Origin: Streptomyces sp. MUM 203J
Lineage (GTDB): Bacteria; Actinomycetota; Actinomycetes; Streptomycetales; Streptomycetaceae
Assembly: GCF_022414595.1 (NCBI RefSeq)
Contig: NZ_JADWYO010000031.1
Span: 1 to 64,000, forward strand
Direction of reading: 5' to 3'
DNA: 64,000 nt
The notes beneath the pieces are model-generated. The model did not search any database. It was not told the DNA's origin and saw only the letters and a list, made by a program, of their open reading frames with translations. Position numbers and translations under genes: made by a program. Position 1 is the stretch's first letter. Each line of letters begins with the position of its first letter. Below are positions 3,059-15,026 of this stretch, piece by piece.

Positions 3059-3974
3059 TCATGCCCGCTGTCCGATCGCGAGGGGGACCCCACGGGTGAT
3101 GCCGGTGCGCAGTTCCAGCGCCAGGTCGACGTCACGGGCAACGGGTCGGTCGCGTCCCGCCAGGTCGGCCAGGGTCCACGCGACGCGCAGGACTCGGTCG
3201 AGCCCACGGGCGGTCAGAAGCCCCCGCTCGATGCCTCGTTCGGCGTTGCCGAGAGCGCCGGGCGCGGGCTGCCAGCGGGTGCGCAGCTCGTGCCCCGGAA
3301 CGTCGGCGTTGAGGCTCCACGGGGTGCCGTCGAGGCGGGCTGCCGCCCGTTCTCTGGCGCTCAGGACACGGGCGGCGACGGTGGCGGTGGGTTCGCCGGC
3401 GCCGTTCAGCAGGTCGGCCCGGGAGACGGGTTCGGCCTCGACGCGCAGGTCGACGCGGTCGAGGAGGGGACCCGAGAGCCGGGCCTGGTAGCGGCGGACG
3501 GCGGAGGGCGGGCAGTCGCAGCTGTCGCCGCGCAGGGTGTGCCGCCCGCAGGGGCACGGGTTGGCGGCCAGGACCATCAGGAAGTGCGCCGGGAGCCGTA
3601 CGACTCCGGCGGCGCGGGCGACGACGACGTGACCGGACTCCAGGGGCTGCCTCAGGGCGTCCAGCGCCTTGCCGGAGAACTCGGGGGCCTCGTCCAGGAA
3701 GAGCACGCCACGATGGGCGAGGGAGCAGGCACCCGGCCGCGGTGCGCCATTGCCGCCGCCGACCAGGGACTGCATGGTGGCCGAGTGGTGCGGCGCGCAG
3801 TAGGGCGCCGAGCTGACCAGGGGTCTGCCCGGCGGGAGGGTACCTGCGACGGAGTGCACGGCGGTGACTTCGAGGGACTCGCGCCGGGTCAGGGGCGGCA
3901 GCACGCCGGGGAGGCGCTCCGCGAGCATCGTCTTGCCCGCGCCGGGCGGCCCGGACAGAAACAGATGGTGACCG
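3059..3974 (-). pseudogene. comM: comM 3' fragment (Mg-chelatase-like ATPase, C-terminal part)
   Basis: The C-terminal 305 codons of ComM/YifB, an AAA+ helicase that assists branch migration. It begins with GGHHLFLSGPPGAGKTM, so the complete Walker A motif sits on this fragment. The Walker B region (GVLFLDEAPEF) and the C-terminal Mg-chelatase domain (NPCPCG motif) follow. Upstream the frame runs into the inserted element without a good start. The first ATG, at 3926-3928, lies after the P-loop, so a functional ATPase is unlikely from this fragment alone. Joined to 9074-9765 it gives 1,608 nt, or 535 residues, in frame, a normal ComM length. Confidence 0.93.
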
Positions 3975-4037
3975 AACCGGGCGGAATTGCATCTGATGCA
4001 CGACCCTGAGGCGGCTTGCCGGGCTGATCTGCAGAGA

Positions 4038-4065
4038 TGCTAGGGCGGTAGCGATCGCCCTAGCA
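4038..4065. repeat. 10-bp perfect inverted repeat near the left end of the element
   Basis: TGCTAGGGCG at 4038-4047 and CGCCCTAGCA at 4056-4065 are separated by 8 nt. The repeat lies between the left junction and the recombinase gene. It could be an operator for the XRE-type protein of the same operon, an arm-type recombinase site, or a terminator for transcription entering the comM 3' fragment. No U-tract follows. Confidence 0.55.
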
Positions 4066-4141
4066 AGCCTCCCACCTGGCACTTTGCCAACGATCATTCA
4101 TTGGATGCATGATTCGGTCGTCTAGCGGCAAGGGGGGTTCG

Positions 4142-5245
4142 GTGTCAGATCGGTTCGAACCGGAGGGGTCCGCACGGTTGCAGGTCGTCTCGGGCGTCAC
4201 CCTGCTGCACCCCGAGGACGCGATCTTCGAGGCAATGCTTGACGGCTGGGACCGGCAGCAACGGGGCGGACGGAACTTGGAGCGCAAGACCATCAGCGAC
4301 CGGCAGGCACGCGTCCGGGATTTCATGGAATTCGCGGGCGAGTATCCGTGGCACTGGAACGCGGCCCACATGGACGACTGGTCGAGTCACCTGATCGCTG
4401 AGCTTCACAGGAAGCCCTCCACGATCCGCAACTACCAAGGTGCGATCAGGCTGTTCTGCGACTACCTGATCAACCCGCACTACCGGTGGGTGGAGGAGTG
4501 CGAGCAACGGTTCGGTACGCACCCGGTGCAGATCTGCCACGAGTGGAACACCCTCGCCCACCTCGTCGACTACGAGGGGGACGAGGACCGTCGGCCCTTC
4601 ACCCGGAACGAGTTGCAGGCATTCTTCGACTACTGCGACGGCCGGGTCGAGCGAGCTGTCCGAAAGGGGCGGAAGGGGGCTCTGCACGCCTATCGCGACG
4701 CCACGATGTTCAAGGCGATCTACGCCTGGGGCCTTCGTCGCACGGAGGCTTCGCGGCTGGACTTGTCGGATTTCCACCGCAACCCCAAGGCTCCGGAGTT
4801 CGGCCGATACGGCGGCCTCCAGGTCCGATACGGAAAGCGCACTCGTGGGTCGGCCTATCGCCGGCGCGAGGTGCTGTCAGTGATGGACTGGGCGGTCGAG
4901 GCCGTCGAGGACTACGTCACCAACGTCCGGCCTCGCTTCGGGTTCCCGGACCATCCGGCCCTGTGGGTGACTGAGCGGGGTGGCCGTGTCCGCCCGCGGG
5001 AGATCGACGATCGGTTCGCCGACTACCGCACGGATCTGGAGCTTGACGAGAAACTGGTTCCTCACTGTCTGCGGCACAGTTACGTGACGCACCTGATCGA
5101 GGACGGTGCCGATGAGACCTTCGTACAGCAGCAGGTCGGGCACCGCTACAAGTCCACGACTGCGATCTATACGTCGGTCAGCGGTGACTTCATGAACACG
5201 ATGATGCGCCAGCACCTGGACCAGACCCTCGCTCCGATGGGATGA
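4142..5245 (+). CDS. Tyrosine recombinase / site-specific integrase
   Basis: A 367-residue tyrosine recombinase with all main catalytic positions. The first arginine is in AWGLRRTEA (R199). A likely beta-hairpin lysine is in RYGKRTRG. The HxxR box is PHCLRH (H308, R311), the next histidine is in GHRYKSTT (H334), and the nucleophile is in AIYTSV (Y343). A SAM-like core-binding domain precedes at about residues 45-115. The GTG at 4142 is chosen because AAGGGGGG lies 6 nt upstream; the ATG at 4109 would add 11 residues but has no ribosome site. It should cut and rejoin the element ends. It overlaps the next gene by 4 nt (ATGA). Confidence 0.93.
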   Translation: MSDRFEPEGSARLQVVSGVTLLHPEDAIFEAMLDGWDRQQRGGRNLERKTISDRQARVRDFMEFAGEYPWHWNAAHMDDWSSHLIAELHRKPSTIRNYQGAIRLFCDYLINPHYRWVEECEQRFGTHPVQICHEWNTLAHLVDYEGDEDRRPFTRNELQAFFDYCDGRVERAVRKGRKGALHAYRDATMFKAIYAWGLRRTEASRLDLSDFHRNPKAPEFGRYGGLQVRYGKRTRGSAYRRREVLSVMDWAVEAVEDYVTNVRPRFGFPDHPALWVTERGGRVRPREIDDRFADYRTDLELDEKLVPHCLRHSYVTHLIEDGADETFVQQQVGHRYKSTTAIYTSVSGDFMNTMMRQHLDQTLAPMG

Positions 5246-5589
5246 CGATGCCTTCCAAACTTGACTACCGCTGGCACCTGCGCGAGCTCATGGCGAAGCA
5301 GGGCATGTTCTCCACCACCGCGCTTCAGCCCTTGCTCGTCGAGCGTGGGATCAATTTGTCCACCAGCCAGGTCTATCGCCTGGTGACGGAGAAGCCCGAG
5401 CGGTTGAGCATGAAGGTCCTCATGGCCCTGCTCGACATTCTCGGCTGCGCGATGGACGAGCTGATCGAGCCGGTGGCCGCAGCGGCAGCGGCCCGACCGC
5501 GCAAGGCCGCCGGCGCCGAACTGGCCGGTGACGCCGGCGTCGGTTCCTTCCGGCCGAAGCGGGCCCGGATCTCGGGGGTTGATTCCTGA
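5242..5589 (+). CDS. Small XRE-type helix-turn-helix protein of the element
   Basis: A 115-residue protein whose first 75 residues match a Cro/C1 (XRE-like) helix-turn-helix: LRELMAKQGMFSTT, then the recognition-helix part LSTSQVYRLV and the closing LLDILGCAMDELI. The C-terminal tail of about 40 residues is Ala- and Arg-rich and looks unstructured. The start overlaps the recombinase stop (ATGA) and its stop overlaps the next start (TGATG), so the three genes form a coupled operon. It may repress the operon or act as a directionality factor by binding the ends; neither is shown. A second ATG six bases in is also possible. Confidence 0.85.
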   Translation: MTMPSKLDYRWHLRELMAKQGMFSTTALQPLLVERGINLSTSQVYRLVTEKPERLSMKVLMALLDILGCAMDELIEPVAAAAAARPRKAAGAELAGDAGVGSFRPKRARISGVDS

Positions 5590-8021
5590 TGGCGACTCCC
5601 GTGCCGGCCCCGGCTTCCGTCGAGGACGACACGGCCGCGATCGTGGCCGTCGTCCACGGGGTGGAACCCCGGCTTCGGGAGTCCGTAATCCGAACCGTGC
5701 TGGCGCAGACGTGCGTCGCCCGGACCAAGCGCCGCCGAGTCGCCCGCGCATTGGAAGGCGATCCGGGCCTTCTCACCTGCGGGCGTCCCGACGGGCCGGT
5801 CGCCGTCGATCAGCTGATCCACGCTCTGATTGCAGCTGGCGCCCGACAGCTGGTCGCCCCCCGCTGCCCCAAGTGCGGCACCCAGACGGCTCTGCTCAGC
5901 GAGAAGCTGGATGGCCAACGCGTTTGCCAGACCTGCAAAACGTCGTTCCGTGCCAACACGCGACCTTGTTCGGCCTGCGGGTCCACCCTCAACGTCAACT
6001 GCCGGGACCGTCAGGGACGTCCCGTCTGCCGCGGCTGCCGACCGGGCGACGGAGAAGACCCGGTGGCCCGCTTGATTGGCCAGGTCGCCCCTTTGGCCCC
6101 GGGCCTGAAATCCGAACAACTTCAGGCAGCGATTCAGGCTTCCAACAAGCAGTCGTACGCCCTGCTCAAGGTCTCCTGGGAGATCGAGGATCGTCCCGCG
6201 CTCCTGACGGGTGAGGGTGCCCAGGGCTCGCCGCATCTGATGCGGCTCCTCATAGAACTTCACAAGATCGGCGCGAGCGGCATCGTTGTCCCAGCCTGCC
6301 CGCAGTGCTCGGATGCACGCCCGCTGTTGTTCCGCGGCAAGAGTGGCCTTCGTGTCTGTCGCGGCTGCTATGACGCAGAACGAGCCCAGCCCTGCACAGG
6401 CTGCGGGAATGACCGCCCGGTCGTCTCCCGTTCTAACAGTGGCGGAGCCCTCTGTGGCACGTGCTCAGCCCAGGACCCCGAGAAGTTCGAGCAGTGCATC
6501 CAGTGCCGCCGCCATCGCCCCGTCGGACGGCGGACACCCGACGGGCCTCACTGTCGGGCCTGCTACCGACTGCCCGTCGACCGCTGCGGCCTCTGCGGCC
6601 GGAACCGGCCATGCATCGGAGCCAGTACGACGACGCCTCGCTGCGAAACCTGTTACCAGGTCAAGCACCCCTGTCACCGATGCGGAAAGACCTTCTACCC
6701 CCGAGCCCGCACACCGGATGGCTACCTCTGCCAGACCTGCTACAGAGTGGACCCGGTCGCCTACCGCACCTGCACCGGCTGCGGTCAGTCCGCCATTCTC
6801 TGGCACCACGGACTCTGCCCTCGTTGCGCCTGCACCCGCCGCCTCACGGAACTCCTTGCCGGCTCCGACGGCTCCATCCGCCCCGGTCTACAGCTGGCAT
6901 TCGAGGCCCTCAGCTCTGCTGACGACCCAAGATCGGTCCTCTCGTGGATCGCGCCCAGGACCAGGGCTGCCACCGTGCTGGCTCAGCTGGGAACCGACGG
7001 GTTCCCAGTCGATCACAGCACGCTCGATCAGTACCCTCGCAGCCGAGCCATCGACTACCTGCGAGGAGTCCTGGTCACCGCGGGCGCCCTTCCGCACCGT
7101 GATGAGCAGATGGTGGCCCTCCACCGGTCACTGAGCGAGATCTTCAACAGCATCTCGGACAGCGACGACCGCAAGTTGCTCCAGGCCTTCACCCAGTGGG
7201 ACCAGCTCGGCAGGCTCCGGCGACGCCTCGCAGGTCGTCCGGCGACCTACAACCAGATCAACACCATTCGGGTCCAGGTGAAGCAAGGTGCCCGCCTGAT
7301 GGCGTGGCTCCGCAATCACGACACTGACCTGTCCAGATGCAGCCAGCGCGAGATTGATCTATGGCTGTCGGAGGGCAAGTCCGTGCACCTGCATGCCCGC
7401 GCTTTCGTGAAGTGGGCAGCCGCCCGCGGCCACACCGCTGGTCTGCAGATCCCGCCACCGAGCCGCACCAACCCGACGCCGCCCCTCGACACCGAGAAGC
7501 GGATCGAGCTCTCCCGGCGGCTCCTGACGGACGCCACCCTCGCATTGGACCTGCGCGTCGCCGGCCTCATGGTCGTACTCTTCGCCCAGCCCGTTACGAC
7601 CATCACGAAGATCCGCATCGACCAGGTTCTTCACACCGATGCAGGCGTCCATATCGCCTTCGGACGAGAACCACTCCACCTGCCAGGCGCCATCGGAGAG
7701 CTGGTGACACACCTGTCAACCGACCGACGCGCTTACTCCGCCATTGGGCGAAACAGCACAAGCCCCTGGCTCTTCCCTGGCCGGCATCCCGAACAGCACC
7801 TCAGCCCAGCGACACTCCTGGAACGGCTCAAAGAGCTCGGAATCACGGCACGAGCCACCCAGCACGCCGCCCTCCGGGACCTCACCACAGCCCTGCCCGA
7901 GGCCGTGATCAACCGGCTCCTCGGCATCAGCATCTCCTCGGTCGACCGCTGGAAGGCCGGCGGTCAGTGGGCGAACTACGCGGCCGAGGTGGCCCGCCGT
8001 CGCATGCCACCCAAGGCGTGA
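5589..8021 (+). CDS. Zinc-array protein with degenerate tyrosine-recombinase domain
   Basis: An 810-residue protein. Residues 93-413 hold sixteen CxxC pairs that group into eight four-cysteine sites: 93/96+113/116, 127/130+147/150, 237/240+257/260, 269/272+289/292, 303/306+322/325, 333/336+352/355, 362/365+381/384 and 395/398+410/413. Pairs within a site are 15-20 residues apart. Residues about 550-615 resemble a SAM-like core-binding domain. Residues about 650-800 resemble a recombinase catalytic fold, but the first-arginine region reads FAQPVTTITK, the HxxR box reads AALRD, and the tyrosine position is W788. It is probably a catalytically dead architectural or target-choosing partner of the recombinase. 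I recognise no named family. Confidence 0.8.
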   Translation: MATPVPAPASVEDDTAAIVAVVHGVEPRLRESVIRTVLAQTCVARTKRRRVARALEGDPGLLTCGRPDGPVAVDQLIHALIAAGARQLVAPRCPKCGTQTALLSEKLDGQRVCQTCKTSFRANTRPCSACGSTLNVNCRDRQGRPVCRGCRPGDGEDPVARLIGQVAPLAPGLKSEQLQAAIQASNKQSYALLKVSWEIEDRPALLTGEGAQGSPHLMRLLIELHKIGASGIVVPACPQCSDARPLLFRGKSGLRVCRGCYDAERAQPCTGCGNDRPVVSRSNSGGALCGTCSAQDPEKFEQCIQCRRHRPVGRRTPDGPHCRACYRLPVDRCGLCGRNRPCIGASTTTPRCETCYQVKHPCHRCGKTFYPRARTPDGYLCQTCYRVDPVAYRTCTGCGQSAILWHHGLCPRCACTRRLTELLAGSDGSIRPGLQLAFEALSSADDPRSVLSWIAPRTRAATVLAQLGTDGFPVDHSTLDQYPRSRAIDYLRGVLVTAGALPHRDEQMVALHRSLSEIFNSISDSDDRKLLQAFTQWDQLGRLRRRLAGRPATYNQINTIRVQVKQGARLMAWLRNHDTDLSRCSQREIDLWLSEGKSVHLHARAFVKWAAARGHTAGLQIPPPSRTNPTPPLDTEKRIELSRRLLTDATLALDLRVAGLMVVLFAQPVTTITKIRIDQVLHTDAGVHIAFGREPLHLPGAIGELVTHLSTDRRAYSAIGRNSTSPWLFPGRHPEQHLSPATLLERLKELGITARATQHAALRDLTTALPEAVINRLLGISISSVDRWKAGGQWANYAAEVARRRMPPKA

Positions 8022-8022
8022 A

Positions 8023-8559
8023 TCAGCCGACCTCGACGGCCCACAGGCCGAGCCGAGAGCCGTCGTCACCATCCAGGTGATCGATTAGAGCCATCCCTGC
8101 CCGGGCCGCCAGGGCCTCGCTCGCCTTGTTCCGCGTGTCGATCTTGCCGAGAACAAGAATGGGACTCCCCGAGTCTGAACCCCGGATCGTGGACAGAGCG
8201 TGCTCGAAGGTGGCGTCCGCGACCTTCCGTCCCGCTCTGCGATGTTTCATGGACACGGCAAGCGCCATGATCAGGCGCTGAGGGCCTGCATAGTCGACGA
8301 GAGAACAGCGAGCGTGGGCATAGGCAGCGGCGATGCGGCCGTTCTCCGGCAGAATCCACAGCTGTTGATCTGCAGCGGCAGCCTTTGCAGTGCTGGTGAG
8401 GGACTCATCCCGAAACCAGGACTGAACACTGCGTTCCCACGGCAAGCTGTTATGCAGAGGCCGCCCTTTGCGGTCCTTCTTCGGCTTCGGAGTGCAGGTG
8501 AAGCCGTTCAGAAGGGCACGATCTTGCTTGATCGCCCTGCGCCAGTTGACAGAGTTCAC
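8023..8559 (-). CDS. GNAT-like acetyltransferase (element cargo)
   Basis: A 178-residue protein. The C-terminal half looks like a GNAT fold: a strand and acetyl-CoA loop region (LIMALAVSMKHRRAGRKVAD), a strand ILVLGKID, then N-K-A-S-E-A-L-A-A-R-A-G-M, the usual helix before the last strands. The acetyl-CoA loop is less glycine-rich than normal, so activity is uncertain. The GTG start at 8559 overlaps the upstream stop (GTGA). The gene ends one base from the end of the zinc-array gene, tail to tail. GNAT proteins coupled to a small basic partner include toxins that acetylate charged tRNA, but the partner here is not a recognised antitoxin type. Confidence 0.68.
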   Translation of the reverse strand: MNSVNWRRAIKQDRALLNGFTCTPKPKKDRKGRPLHNSLPWERSVQSWFRDESLTSTAKAAAADQQLWILPENGRIAAAYAHARCSLVDYAGPQRLIMALAVSMKHRRAGRKVADATFEHALSTIRGSDSGSPILVLGKIDTRNKASEALAARAGMALIDHLDGDDGSRLGLWAVEVG

Positions 8560-8981
8560 TCGGCGGGTGCCACAGTTCGACGTGGGATGGTTCCTTCGGC
8601 CAACCGTCGTTCCAGCGATTCGCGAGCTTTGTCCGGAAGAGCCGCCTTCATTTCGGCCTCGTACTTGGCACCCCGGGTCCGGGTCCGCTGGTTGGCAGCC
8701 TTCCAGGCGACAACCTGCTCTGCCATGCGTCGCTGGGTCGAAGAGAGGGTCTGTTTCGCCCCGCGTTGCGCCGAGCGCGGGCGGCGGATCCGCGCGAGAC
8801 CCTTGGAGCCATACGCGCCAAGCAGAGCCCGGAGCTCGGCTTCGGGCTTCCCTGCCATTCGCGCAACGTTCGCGCGACTGATCGGGTCGCTGGGCTCTTT
8901 CTTGGCGCCCTGCTTCTTGGCACCTTCGGCCTTCGCGGCAGCGCGGGTCCCCCGATCTGCCCCTGCTGCCTTCCGTCCCAT
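8556..8981 (-). CDS. Basic protein of unknown function (element cargo)
   Basis: A 141-residue, very basic protein. The first 30 residues are Lys/Ala/Gly-rich and look disordered. A helical middle part follows (ISRANVARMAGKPEAELRALL), then an Arg/Lys-rich region and a last helix ending LERRLAEGTIP. I recognise no family. The charge suggests nucleic-acid binding. The ATG at 8979-8981 is preceded by TATGCT 6 nt upstream, a possible leaderless promoter, and this upstream space lies inside the element. It is coupled to the GNAT-like gene by a GTGA overlap. Confidence 0.65.
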   Translation of the reverse strand: MGRKAAGADRGTRAAAKAEGAKKQGAKKEPSDPISRANVARMAGKPEAELRALLGAYGSKGLARIRRPRSAQRGAKQTLSSTQRRMAEQVVAWKAANQRTRTRGAKYEAEMKAALPDKARESLERRLAEGTIPRRTVAPAE

Positions 8982-8987
8982 GGGACG

Positions 8988-8993
8988 AGCATA
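8988..8993 (-). promoter_or_regulatory. Putative -10 of a leaderless promoter for the cargo operon
   Basis: TATGCT, then CGTCCC, then the ATG of the 141-residue gene. The 92 bp between this gene and the comM junction are the only place for its promoter inside the element. Confidence 0.4.
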
Positions 8994-9073
8994 CCCAGAC
9001 GGGGGACCCGAACCGCTGACGAAGCTCAGAAGGAGGGCCATTGCGCAACTTCTGATATCCGCCTCCACCAATA

Positions 9074-9765
9074 CCGGCCGCGGCGACCTCCAGGGCGAGG
9101 CGGGCCGCCCGCTGCCCCGCGACGTCCTTGAGGTCCGGGGTGTCGGCGGGCGTGGTGGCCAGTCCGGTGCCGAGGCCGGCACCGGGCACGAGGAGCCCGG
9201 CGAGTGCCGGATCGGGCCTGCCCTCCTCGCGCGGTCCCTCGTCGGGGAGGGGGGCGTCGTTGAGGACGGCGAGGAGCTGGCGCAGCGTGCGGACGCCGAG
9301 GACGGAGACGCCGGGGACGAGTGCGGCCTCCCCCGCGGTCTGCTCCGGCACCACGACGTGGTCGTATCCGGCCTCGGCGGCGGCGAGGACCGCCGGGAGG
9401 ACGCCCCGGACCGGCCTGACGCGGCCGTCGAGCCCGAGTTCTCCGATGAGGACGAGGTCGGCGATGGCGCGCGGGTCGACGAGTTCGGCGGCGGCGAGGA
9501 CGGCGACCGCGACCGCGAGGTCGAAGCCGGATCCCGCCTTGGGCACGGACGCGGGGCTGAGGCCCACGGTCAGTTTCCTCTGCGGCCACTCGGCGCCGGA
9601 GTTGCACACGGCGGCCCTGACTCGCTCTCTGGCCTCCGAGAGGCTCTTGTCGGGCAGCCCGACCAGGGTGAACGCGGCGACGCCGGGTTCCAGATCGGCC
9701 TGGACCTCCGCCACGACGCCGTCGACGCCGACGAGTGCGACGGAACAGGTACGCGCGAAGCCCAT
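9074..9765 (-). pseudogene. comM: comM 5' fragment (N-terminal Lon-protease-like domain)
   Basis: The first 230 codons plus two bases of ComM. It begins [16 protein letters not shown] and contains the Lon-like N-terminal domain (FTLVGLPDKSLSEARERVR, VGLSPASVPKAGSGFDL). It ends at DVAGQRAARLALEVAAAG, just before the ATPase P-loop. The ATG overlaps the yraN stop (TGATG), so translation should still start. After the junction the frame stays open through the element and runs into the GNAT-like gene, ending at 8023 (580 codons from the comM start). The ATPase part lies 5.1 kb away. Confidence 0.93.
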
Positions 9766-11139: not shown

Positions 11140-11937
11140 TCACCCACGCGCCACCGCCTCGCCGGAACCGGCCCCGCGCCCGCCCGCGCCGCCGGAGCCA
11201 CCGCGGCCCACGGCCCGCCGCAGCACCCCCGCGACCGGCCCGTACGCGGCACCGCCCAGGATCAGCCCCACACCCGCGGCCAACGCCCAGGCCAGCGGCT
11301 CCACCGGCCCCGGCCGCGACACCCCGCCCGGCAGCGAGGCGAACGCGGCGGGCCGCTCCAGAACCCCCTCCAGCGGCCACACCACGGCGTCCAGCCGTCC
11401 CGTCACCGCGCTTCTGGGAACCGAACCCTGTCCGGGCTCCGTGAGGTGCACCCGGGAGTCCTGGGAGCTGGCGCGCTGGTCGCCGAGCAGGAACAGATGC
11501 CCGTCGGGCACCGTCGCGGAGAACGCGCCGGGCGAGGCGGCCTTCGCGTCCTCCCACACCTGCGGGTGCAGATACGGCTCGTCGACCGCCGTGCCGTTGA
11601 CGGTGAGCCGCCCGTCGGCGTCGCAGCAGACGACCTCGTCGCCGTCCACCCCCACGACCCGTTTGATCATCGTGACGCCGCCCCAGCGGGGGTCGCTGAA
11701 CACCACGATGTCGCCGCGCCGCACGTCGGCGCCGCCGACCCGCTCGGCCAGCACCCGGTCCCCCGCCGTCACCGTCGGGCTCATGGAGTCGGTCGGCACG
11801 GTGTACGGGTGGTAGACCAGGGCCGCCCATGCGAACCCGCCGAGGAACAGCACACAGCCGACGGCCACGGCCAGCCCCGACAGCATTCTGCCGAGGCGGC
11901 CGTGGCCGTCGCCACCGCTGCCTGTCGTTCCGCCCAT
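11140..11937 (-). CDS. sipZ: Type I signal peptidase SipZ
   Basis: A 265-residue membrane serine protease that removes signal peptides from Sec/Tat-exported proteins. A transmembrane segment lies at about residues 18-41. The catalytic serine is in VPTDSM (S51) and the general-base lysine in MIKRVVG (K92). The substrate-side motif GDQRASSQDSR follows. A second hydrophobic stretch lies near the C-terminus (about 205-230). The ATG at 11937 has GGAG 8 nt upstream; a GTG at 12003 would add 22 residues. It is the last of four tandem paralogues. Confidence 0.9.
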   Translation of the reverse strand: MGGTTGSGGDGHGRLGRMLSGLAVAVGCVLFLGGFAWAALVYHPYTVPTDSMSPTVTAGDRVLAERVGGADVRRGDIVVFSDPRWGGVTMIKRVVGVDGDEVVCCDADGRLTVNGTAVDEPYLHPQVWEDAKAASPGAFSATVPDGHLFLLGDQRASSQDSRVHLTEPGQGSVPRSAVTGRLDAVVWPLEGVLERPAAFASLPGGVSRPGPVEPLAWALAAGVGLILGGAAYGPVAGVLRRAVGRGGSGGAGGRGAGSGEAVARG

Positions 11938-12036
11938 ACCGGCGCTCCCCCGCTTCCGGATCGGTGCCCGCACCGGTCCTCGACCGGTGCCCTGGAACGG
12001 CACCCTACCCGCGGGTCGCTACCGGCGGTACGCCCC

Positions 12037-13188
12037 TTACGCGTCCCGGTGCGTCCGGTCAGGGCCGGCCGTGCCGGGAGCCGTCGCACCGTCGGCGGAC
12101 GCCGACGCGGACACCGCCCCGGCGGAGGCCGACGCCACCGCCCGCCGGCGCCGCCACAGCACCAGCGGCACCGCGCCCGCGAGGCCCAGCGCCCCGGGCC
12201 CGGCCGCGAGGGCGGCGGCCGCGTTCAGCCCCGGCTGGTCGAAGGTGTCCGGCACGGGCAGCGTGGCCCAGCGGCTGACCGGCCAGGCCACGACGACCGC
12301 CCGGCCGACGACCTCCTTGTTCTCGACCGTGCCGCCGCCCGGGAGCTCCTGGTGATAGCGGGAGTCCAGGGAGTTCTGGCGGTTGTCGCCCATCACCCAG
12401 ATCCTGCCCTCGGGCACCTTGATCGGCCCGAACGGCTGGTCGTCACACGGCGTCGAGCCCGGGTAGAGGTAGGCGGTCTCGTCCAGTTCCTTGCCGTTGA
12501 GGACGACCTTGCCACCCTTCTTGCACTCGACGGTGTCGCCGCCTACCGCGATGACGCGCTTGATCAGGTTCTGTTCGTCGGACTCCGGCATCAGTCCGAT
12601 CCAGCTCAGCACCCGCTGCACCGGGTTCGGCTCCGGCGCGGGCTCGTTGAGCCAGCCGCCCGGGTCGTGGAAGACGACGACCTCGCCGCGCTCGGGCTCC
12701 GAACCGAACCACGGGGTCAGCTTGTCGACCAGCACCCGGTCGCCGCGCTGCAGAGTGTTCATCATCGACTCGGACGGGATGGAGAACGCCTGCACCAGGA
12801 AGGACTTGATCAGCAGCGCCAGAACCAGCGCGATACCGATGAGCAGCGGCAGTTCCTTCCAGAAGGACCGCTGTTTCCCCGGCCCCTCACCGTCCGGGGT
12901 GCCGTCCCCGTCCGGGGTGCCGTCCCCGCCCCCGGACGCGCCGCCGGTGCCGTCATTGCCGTCGGTGTGGTTGTCCACGCTGCCGCCCTCGGCGTTCTCC
13001 GCGTTGTACGTGTTGCCCGCGCCCTGCGGGGCCGCGCCGACCGCGTCCCGCGGTCCCCCCGGGGCCGCCTCGCCGGTGCCGTCCACGGCGGGGCCTCCGG
13101 CCGGACCGGGGGATCGCTCAGCGACTTGCTCGCGCCCCGGCTCCGGCTCGTCTCGTCCGGATCGTGCGCCGACCGCCAGATCCCCCAC
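12037..13188 (-). CDS. sipY: Type I signal peptidase SipY
   Basis: A 383-residue signal peptidase with a long polar N-terminal cytoplasmic part (about 105 residues, with a GTPDGD/GTPDGE repeat). A transmembrane segment lies at about 113-131, the catalytic serine in IPSESM (S141), the lysine in LIKRVIAVGGD (K210), the GDNRQNSLDSR motif, and a second membrane segment near 320-345. The GTG at 13188 is chosen because GAGGAG lies 5 nt upstream; a GTG at 13194 is the alternative. The start lies inside the 3' end of sipX, a 71-bp overlap. Confidence 0.9.
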   Translation of the reverse strand: MGDLAVGARSGRDEPEPGREQVAERSPGPAGGPAVDGTGEAAPGGPRDAVGAAPQGAGNTYNAENAEGGSVDNHTDGNDGTGGASGGGDGTPDGDGTPDGEGPGKQRSFWKELPLLIGIALVLALLIKSFLVQAFSIPSESMMNTLQRGDRVLVDKLTPWFGSEPERGEVVVFHDPGGWLNEPAPEPNPVQRVLSWIGLMPESDEQNLIKRVIAVGGDTVECKKGGKVVLNGKELDETAYLYPGSTPCDDQPFGPIKVPEGRIWVMGDNRQNSLDSRYHQELPGGGTVENKEVVGRAVVVAWPVSRWATLPVPDTFDQPGLNAAAALAAGPGALGLAGAVPLVLWRRRRAVASASAGAVSASASADGATAPGTAGPDRTHRDA

Positions 13189-14158
13189 ATCCACTCCTCA
13201 GTCCATGCGTTCGCCCGCCCCAGAGCAGGGGAAGGCCCACTACTCCCATAACGAGCGGGAGTTCCGCAGGGGTCGGGAGCCGTAGCGATCCATTCGGATT
13301 CCGAGAGGACACACTATGCGACGCGCCGAGTGCCGTCGTGGCACCGGGCGACGGCGCGTCCGGTACGGCCCCGAACACATCCCGTCGCTCCAGCCCCTGC
13401 CAGTGGCCCACCGGCCAGCCGATGTAGACGGCCCGGCCCACGACGCCTTCTTCGGGGATCGTGCCCTGGAACTCCTCGTCCAGATGAAACCGGGAGTCGG
13501 CCGAGTTGGCGCGGTGGTCCCCCATGACGAAGAGGCGCCCGGGCGGTACCCGGACCTCGAATCTGATCTCCGAGGGGGAGTTGCCCGGATGCACGTACGG
13601 CTCGTCCAGGGGAACGCCGTTGACGGTGAGGCGCCCGCTGTCGTCGCAGCACTTCACGGTGTCGCCGCCGACGGCCACCACACGTTTGATGAGGTCCTGT
13701 TCGTCGTCCGAGGGCAGCAGCCCGATGAACGTCATGCCCTCCTTGACCTGCTTGATGAGGAACGGGTCGTCCTCCTCGGGAAGCTGGTCCTGCTGGAGCC
13801 ATCCGCCGGGATCCTCGAACACGACCACGTCGCCGCGCTGCGGCTTCGTCCCGAACCAGGGTGTCAGCTTGTCGACGAGCACCCGGTCGTCGATCTGGAT
13901 CGTCTCCTCCATGGAGCCGGAGGGAATGACGAACGCCTGCACCAGGAAGGTCTTCAGGACGAGCGCTATCAGCACGGCGGCCGTGACGAGGAGCGGGATC
14001 TCCTTGACCGCGGACCGTCGGCGGCGCCGCTTGACCTTGCGGGCGAGCCTGCGCCGCTCCGCGCGCCCGGGGAGCGGGGAGCGCCCGTCGGTGGGCCGGG
14101 TCCCGGTGGGCAGCCGGGTGTCGGCACCGTGACCGCCGGGCCGCCCGCGCCTACCCAT
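13118..14158 (-). CDS. sipX: Type I signal peptidase SipX
   Basis: A 346-residue signal peptidase. A short basic cytoplasmic region (RRRRR at 44-48) is followed by a transmembrane segment at about 53-73, the catalytic serine in IPSGSM (S82), the lysine in LIKRVVAVGGD (K158), and GDHRANSADSR. A C-terminal membrane segment (PLVMGVVGLPLLW) follows, then about 35 Arg/Gly-rich residues that overlap sipY out of frame. This tail looks like read-through past a lost stop rather than a designed domain. The ATG at 14158 overlaps the sipW end by 8 nt and has GGCGGAGG upstream. Confidence 0.9.
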   Translation of the reverse strand: MGRRGRPGGHGADTRLPTGTRPTDGRSPLPGRAERRRLARKVKRRRRRSAVKEIPLLVTAAVLIALVLKTFLVQAFVIPSGSMEETIQIDDRVLVDKLTPWFGTKPQRGDVVVFEDPGGWLQQDQLPEEDDPFLIKQVKEGMTFIGLLPSDDEQDLIKRVVAVGGDTVKCCDDSGRLTVNGVPLDEPYVHPGNSPSEIRFEVRVPPGRLFVMGDHRANSADSRFHLDEEFQGTIPEEGVVGRAVYIGWPVGHWQGLERRDVFGAVPDAPSPGATTALGASHSVSSRNPNGSLRLPTPAELPLVMGVVGLPLLWGGRTHGLRSGCGGSGGRRTIRTRRAGAGARASR

Positions 14159-15026
14159 GGCCTCCGCCGACCACCGCTCCCCCGGCCGGTACGGCGTCGA
14201 AGGCACCGGTCCGGCCGACGGTGGACCACCGCCCGGCCGGCCACGCGATCCAGTCGGCCCGGCCGATCACCCGGTCGACCGGGACCATGCCGCCGCCGGG
14301 CGCGCCGAGCAGTTCGCGGGAGTCCCGGGACTGGCTGCGGTGGTCACCCATCACCCAGAGCCTGCCGGGCGGCACGACGATGTCGAACGGCACCCGGGAC
14401 GGGGAGTCGCCCGGATACAGGTACGGCTCGTCGACCACTGCTCCGTTCACCTGGACCCTGCCTTCCTTGTCACAGCACGTCACCCGGTCACCGCCCACGC
14501 CGATCACGCGCTTGACGAAGACGGTGTCCGACGGCTCGGCCAGCCCGAGCCCCGCGGCGAGTCCGCGCAGTGCTCCGGTGACCGGATTCTCCTCGGGAAC
14601 GTTCCGGACGAACGATCCGGTTCCGTCGAAGACGATCACGTCCCCGCGCGGGGGCGGGTCGTCGGAGCCGTACGCCAGTCTGTTCACGAGGACCCGGTCA
14701 CCGACCTGAAGCGTCGGATCCATCGAACGGCTGGGGATCTGGTAGGGGGAGAGGACGAACCGGCCCACCAGCAGCACGGCCACCGCGCAGACGAGGCCGA
14801 TGATCCCGATCCGCCGCCAGGACAGCCCGCCCAGCCACGCCACGCCCTCGGCGCCGCCGTCGGCGGGCGGGCCGGCGTCCGGGGCCTCAGGATCCGCGGA
14901 GTCGGCCGGATCCGAGGGGTCCGGCGCGGCCGGTCGCCGGAAACGCGCAGAGCGCGACCCGCCCTCCGTGCGCCTGTCGGCGTCGGGAGGCAGATCGCGC
15001 TCCGTGTGCTGTGCTTCGGTGTCCAT
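14151..15026 (-). CDS. sipW: Type I signal peptidase SipW
   Basis: A 291-residue signal peptidase, first of the four tandem genes after rplS. A 65-residue Pro/Asp/Ala-rich cytoplasmic part precedes a transmembrane segment at about 72-93. The catalytic serine is in IPSRSM (S101) and the lysine in FVKRVIGVGGD (K172). GDHRSQSRDSR is the later conserved motif. Unlike SipX and SipY there is no clear second membrane segment near the C-terminus, in line with the single-anchor type described for SipW of S. lividans. Confidence 0.91.
   Translation of the reverse strand: MDTEAQHTERDLPPDADRRTEGGSRSARFRRPAAPDPSDPADSADPEAPDAGPPADGGAEGVAWLGGLSWRRIGIIGLVCAVAVLLVGRFVLSPYQIPSRSMDPTLQVGDRVLVNRLAYGSDDPPPRGDVIVFDGTGSFVRNVPEENPVTGALRGLAAGLGLAEPSDTVFVKRVIGVGGDRVTCCDKEGRVQVNGAVVDEPYLYPGDSPSRVPFDIVVPPGRLWVMGDHRSQSRDSRELLGAPGGGMVPVDRVIGRADWIAWPAGRWSTVGRTGAFDAVPAGGAVVGGGHG

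Follow-up and report, generated by a model that had tools for sequence, protein, structure and literature searches.

A probable Tsy-like mobile element at a preferred site in comM of Streptomyces sp. MUM 203J

We analysed a window of 64,000 nucleotides from Streptomyces sp. MUM 203J (GCF_022414595.1, contig NZ_JADWYO010000031.1, positions 1 to 64,000), in which the competence-related DNA-helicase gene comM is found in two pieces. The 5' part (9074..9765, minus strand; residues 1–231, the Lon-like N-domain) and the 3' part (3059..3974, minus strand; residues 231–535, with Walker A and all the rest of the AAA+ motor) are separated by 5,099 bp (3975..9073). A sequence-only reading of this DNA had described a 5.1-kb recombinase element whose removal restores comM exactly, and both statements hold: when 3975–9073 is deleted and position 3974 is joined to 9074, a single in-frame minus-strand ORF of 535 codons is obtained (...LALEVAAAGGHHLFLSGPPGAGKT...), and its junction residues (223–248) align without a gap to intact Streptomyces comM (30 out of 30 compared). 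No duplicated target base is seen at the element ends when the flanks are joined. The same reading placed the break one codon before the P-loop, which needs correction: the break lies between the second and third bases of codon 231, and the Walker A codons (GPPGAGKT, residues 239–246; 3929..3952, minus strand) begin 22 nt (7 codons and 1 nt) from it, on the end1 side. G+C content is ~0.62–0.70 inside the element versus 0.73–0.76 in the flanking parts of comM. A search of the genome found one copy of the recombinase, the two comM halves and no second intact comM.

The element has five genes, not the three first counted. Its first end (end1, 134 bp, 3975..4108) starts with AACCGGGCGGAATTGCATCTGATGCA, and a second GATGCATGATTC motif adjoins the start of the recombinase gene. 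The module that follows consists of three plus-strand genes: a tyrosine recombinase (YRec; 378 aa, 4109..5245; Pfam Phage_integrase, E = 3.8e-19), a small helix-turn-helix (HTH) protein (115 aa, 5242..5589; Pfam HTH_26, E = 3.4e-15) and an 810-aa protein (5589..8021) that is our candidate for a TnsF-like target selector. The recombinase had been credited with all its catalytic residues, and they are indeed invariant in 15 aligned relatives (R210, K243, H319, R322, H345 and Y354). The HTH_26 gene overlaps the 3' end of the YRec gene and is kept in all full-length relatives. The two genes overlooked are on the minus strand: cargo gene 1 (141 aa, 8556..8981), described as an ORF only, and cargo gene 2 (178 aa, 8023..8559), whose GTG start overlaps the stop of cargo gene 1 and which has four distant plasmid homologues (29–31% identity). 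Neither cargo gene matches a family in Pfam or PADLOC. The second end (end2, 8982..9073) finishes with ...CACCAATA, and ACCAATA also terminates the copies in two other genomes (G083 and G197, see below).

Two further features of this region were looked at. A partly palindromic motif containing GATGCA lies at the inner boundary of end1 in most relatives (3984–4117 is the corresponding region of the window); the window, G083 and G155 have it a second time, at the outer boundary. The HTH protein or the recombinase may bind there. We also considered whether the ComM N-part is fused to the cargo, as the frame is open for 714 codons from one into the other (8023–9765, minus strand). This candidate was rejected: the frame stops soon after the junction in G083, and because it is not conserved there we treat the open frame running from the ComM N-part into cargo gene 2 as probably due to chance in G+C-rich DNA.

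The 810-aa protein has no Pfam match above threshold, and a profile search against the PDB found nothing. Conserved CxxC pairs (zinc ribbons) follow one another in a long array up to residue 413, and the AlphaFold2 model of the protein (mean pLDDT 79.9, pTM 0.42) has a tyrosine-recombinase fold at about residues 520–800. The top Foldseek match of the model is 5vfz (E = 6.7e-6). VIA-align superposed it on XerA (Z = 14.0, rmsd 13.1 over 233 residues) and on XerH (5jk0; Z = 12.8, rmsd 6.2 over 249 residues, among the best matches), XerH being the structure that TnsF matched in Faure et al. 2023 (PMC10293859). At the profile level HHalign aligns the C-terminus of the protein with YRec only weakly (probability 0.5%, E = 0.11). 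On the residue mapping that this weak alignment provides, Y797 is invariant, the first arginine and the histidine are off their canonical places, and R758 of the relatives is replaced by glutamine in the window, so the CAT domain apparently is without most of the canonical catalytic residues and degenerate. Architecture, predicted fold and gene order together point to homology with TnsF; by analogy, the 810-aa protein may be the one that selects the target.

The closest description that we know for such an element is Tsy, which has a YRec, a small HTH protein and a TnsF-like protein with zinc fingers followed by recombinase CB and CAT domains, in some cases also a GIY-YIG nuclease, and which is inserted in comM (PMC10293859). 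The window element has the same three kinds of genes in identical order, splits comM cleanly, lacks inverted-repeat ends and keeps its cargo outside the module; its end1 of 134 bp compares with 135 bp in ZooTsy, a Tsy element that has a circular intermediate and requires an active CAT domain (PMC10293859). There are differences, however. ZooTsy is anchored at Walker B, no more than 40 bp from its insertion site (PMC10293859), whereas the window site is on the Walker A side of comM; the 3' part of comM adjoins YRec in the window and the 5' part does so in ZooTsy; the CAT domain is active in ZooTsy and apparently degenerate in the window; no GIY-YIG gene was recognised in the window element; and relatives of the window element also interrupt many other genes. 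We call the element Tsy-like, and not a proven Tsy, because the published Tsy was compared by its description and not by protein sequence.

Other known systems share fewer of these features. Tn6022 of the AbaR family (TnsABC-TniQ-TnsF) also interrupts comM, and it selects its target through TnsF, which is related to the Tsy protein that joins zinc fingers to a recombinase fold (PMC10293859) and has an architecture like that of the third gene of the window element; the earlier opinion that AbaR islands are unrelated to this module is thus wrong. Tn6022, however, uses Tn7-type transposition with target-site duplication, and no TnsA, TnsB, TnsC or TniQ Pfam family is found in the window element. 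Van Houdt et al. 2012 (PMC3414803) described transposons of Actinobacteria that are related to Tn554 and include one abnormally long recombinase; like the window element, these combine a recombinase-like protein of 611–828 aa with an adjacent recombinase of ~350 aa. They occur on both plasmids and chromosomes of Actinobacteria, and the window element may belong with their Famint36/41 pairs, which lack TnpC. Tn554 proper differs in having TnpC (DUF6262-like in Streptomyces), as the small protein of the window belongs to HTH_26. Strand-biased circularizing elements, GInts and RIT are likewise small multi-recombinase elements that insert precisely without target duplication, but they have other gene sets; the window element has, as judged from its residues, one active recombinase, together with the zinc-ribbon protein.

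Relatives of YRec (E ≤ 1e-40) were found at many genes in 94 out of 393 Streptomyces genomes, and in nine of 296 genomes sampled across the phylum (the window genome included). Among 72,556 plasmid records 192 have a relative, chiefly from Streptomyces and Rhodococcus; phage records have none, and a single one in viral contigs sits in a recombinase gene. All three module genes are present in full-length relatives. Three genomes (G158, G090 and G355) each carry a relative in triplicate, as identical or near-identical copies at separate loci, and the flanks of these copies, read from the junctions, rejoin without duplicated or missing target bases. This is a mobile family with precise ends and the anatomy described above. 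Present activity of the window element, and a circular intermediate, we infer by analogy with ZooTsy. Neither the zinc-ribbon protein nor an attL pattern gave a match when scanned against GTDB r220 contigs, so the count of sites rests on the 393 sampled Streptomyces genomes.

The comM site itself has been used repeatedly and independently. In two other species (G083 and G197) the module lies at exactly the comM site of the window, with the same boundaries, and the comM halves are separated by 5.0 kb and ~28.8 kb, respectively. The YRec genes of G083 and G197 are 88.1% identical and their comM halves 75%; because the recombinases are closer than the genes they interrupt, we regard the two insertions as independent. 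With the window, this element family occupies the comM site in three of the 393 Streptomyces genomes. In the YRec tree the comM-site elements and a clade found at recombinase genes lie in separate parts, and the window YRec groups with the comM-site elements, where the branching is not resolved.

comM is also the target of other elements. It was matched in 392 out of the 393 genomes and is whole in most of them, but in at least 24 it is interrupted, with both halves on one contig and 2 to 77 kb apart. The other comM elements inspected (L093–L109) are not all of one class: tyrosine-recombinase trios that include a DUF6262 TnpC-type protein, or comparable sets with large proteins, lie at about residues 325, 366 and 53–80 (e.g. 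DUF6262 is found in L100 of G054), and large serine recombinases lie at about residues 245 and 325. Streptomyces comM is a landing pad common to unrelated elements. Further interrupted examples are L095 (G033), L106 (G170) and L104 (G092), and in contig C24 of G192 (64.5–86.1 kb; L096 and L097) comM carries two separate insertions, at about residues 247 and 325.

The genes interrupted by relatives of the window element are of several kinds. In one large clade all 25 distinct end1 junctions lie directly after a tyrosine codon. Most of these are the codon of the catalytic tyrosine (GHxxxxTTxxY) of other tyrosine recombinases (L081–L089, L031–L036, L118/L129, L121, L126 and L128), including the YRec of sibling elements, which results in nested elements (L082, L085 and L128); a few others interrupt genes of LigT-type phosphoesterases, at HVTLAY or HISLGY. 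Other relatives are found in ATP-dependent DNA ligases on Rhodococcus plasmids (at YIGNVGTG; L120 and L124), in transglycosylase-type genes (at DHIHxG; L110 of G555 and L111 of G393) and in an ATP-grasp gene (L122). The triple copies of G355 are exceptions, as they lie in unrelated places, one of them in a P450 gene. On a Streptomyces halstedii plasmid (L125) the target is possibly a GNAT acetyltransferase gene.

In G155 the element lies in a polynucleotide kinase-phosphatase (Pnkp) gene, 22 nt from the first glycine codon of Walker A, which is the register seen in comM of the window, G083 and G197. The flanking bases of comM and Pnkp agree at 24–28 out of 45, which is not higher than the 18–30 found for any pair of Walker A genes set in this register, so only the equal 22-nt distance is informative, and Pnkp is a single independent gene. 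We propose the Walker A codons (3929–3952) as the candidate anchor for target recognition in the window.

What is new here is that target choice follows the recombinase clade, and that catalytic-motif codons of several genes are hit repeatedly. This suggests that the selector reads conserved catalytic-motif codons on the end1 side. We put the chance that such anchoring is a rule for the whole family at about one half. A wider reading, in which the selector of an actinobacterial Tsy-like family reads catalytic-motif codons and each clade has been retuned to another motif, seems to us evenly balanced between true and false; the motifs would include Walker A (ComM and Pnkp), the catalytic-tyrosine box of tyrosine recombinases (the YRec of sibling elements among them), LigT HxT/S, DNA-ligase YxGxVGTG and others. 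If true, it would describe a naturally diversified, protein-guided targeting system.

In the clade that targets recombinases, the interrupted recombinase keeps its tyrosine and is extended in frame by element sequence (Y-x-NPRELHQ...; e.g. L031, L034 and L081–L087), and 20 out of the 25 distinct junctions have an end1 tail of 33 codons. Such a tail may keep the host recombinase working. We tried to recognise the tail as coding sequence, and set this aside, as the signal is too weak (pN/pS 0.74 in frame versus 0.92 and 1.11 out of frame).

Very probably, then, 3975–9073 is a Tsy-like mobile element that occupies a preferred site in comM. If it works as ZooTsy does, the 810-aa protein with its zinc ribbons and recombinase fold (5589–8021) would bind comM codons on the end1 side, most likely those of the Walker A region, and YRec, aided by the HTH protein, would then recombine the circular joint of the element into the comM site; these roles of the individual proteins are carried over from the published system. 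As no target is duplicated, the insertion would leave comM in two non-functional parts, and excision would restore the gene. The element would be a mobile parasite with comM as its conserved landing pad, and the loss of comM a by-product, or of benefit to the element, and not a switch run by the host.

It had been suggested that the element is such a switch, its conditional excision turning comM on as with the comK prophage of Listeria. The comK prophage also interrupts a competence-related gene precisely, excision of the window element is possible and would restore comM exactly, the recombinase is intact with its catalytic residues kept, and both comM halves are undamaged: their dN/dS relative to the closest relative is about 0.1 (~0.10–0.13; dN 0.065–0.070, dS 0.51–0.71), as in intact genes (0.13–0.18 for pairs of intact comM), and no excess of amino-acid changes is seen on the window branch. 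However, exact restoration is no evidence for switching, because any duplication-free insertion gives it, and the dN/dS values fit either an insertion that is recent on the window branch or continuing selection. The trio is not dedicated to comM: across the 393 Streptomyces genomes it lies in many other genes, with identical or near-identical copies at three places in each of three genomes, an outcome that the earlier reading had itself named as refuting its idea. Because of this, and because the comM site is occupied in only three of 393 genomes while most comM genes are whole, we consider a host-run switch highly improbable. The element also differs from the comK prophage in that it is not a phage, its family is not dedicated to one gene, and it has no sign of regulated excision; and to our knowledge natural competence has not been described for Streptomyces.

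An immobile remnant, inserted once and leaving comM permanently dead in this strain, is a less remote but still unlikely explanation: the genome has a single copy, and one related element, in G007, is degraded, with its YRec split in two places, but the three module genes of the window are full length, the YRec catalytic residues are intact and the comM halves are without decay. That a divided comM is the natural state of this lineage, with ordinary neighbours between the two parts, has practically no chance of being right. No supporting evidence was found for it; the closest relatives (85–88% identical) have a single unbroken comM without a gap at the junction, and the G+C content of the intervening region is lower than that of its flanks.

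The Tsy-like reading would extend to Actinobacteria the range of the recently described Tsy transposons, which are known but have received little study, and would add a second site in comM. The change of target from clade to clade offers a natural series for decoding how a zinc-ribbon selector recognises DNA, and that recognition code bears on programmable insertion. Elsewhere in the window, three adjacent minus-strand ORFs (11140–14206) resemble type I signal peptidases, such as are known from the sip clusters of Streptomyces.
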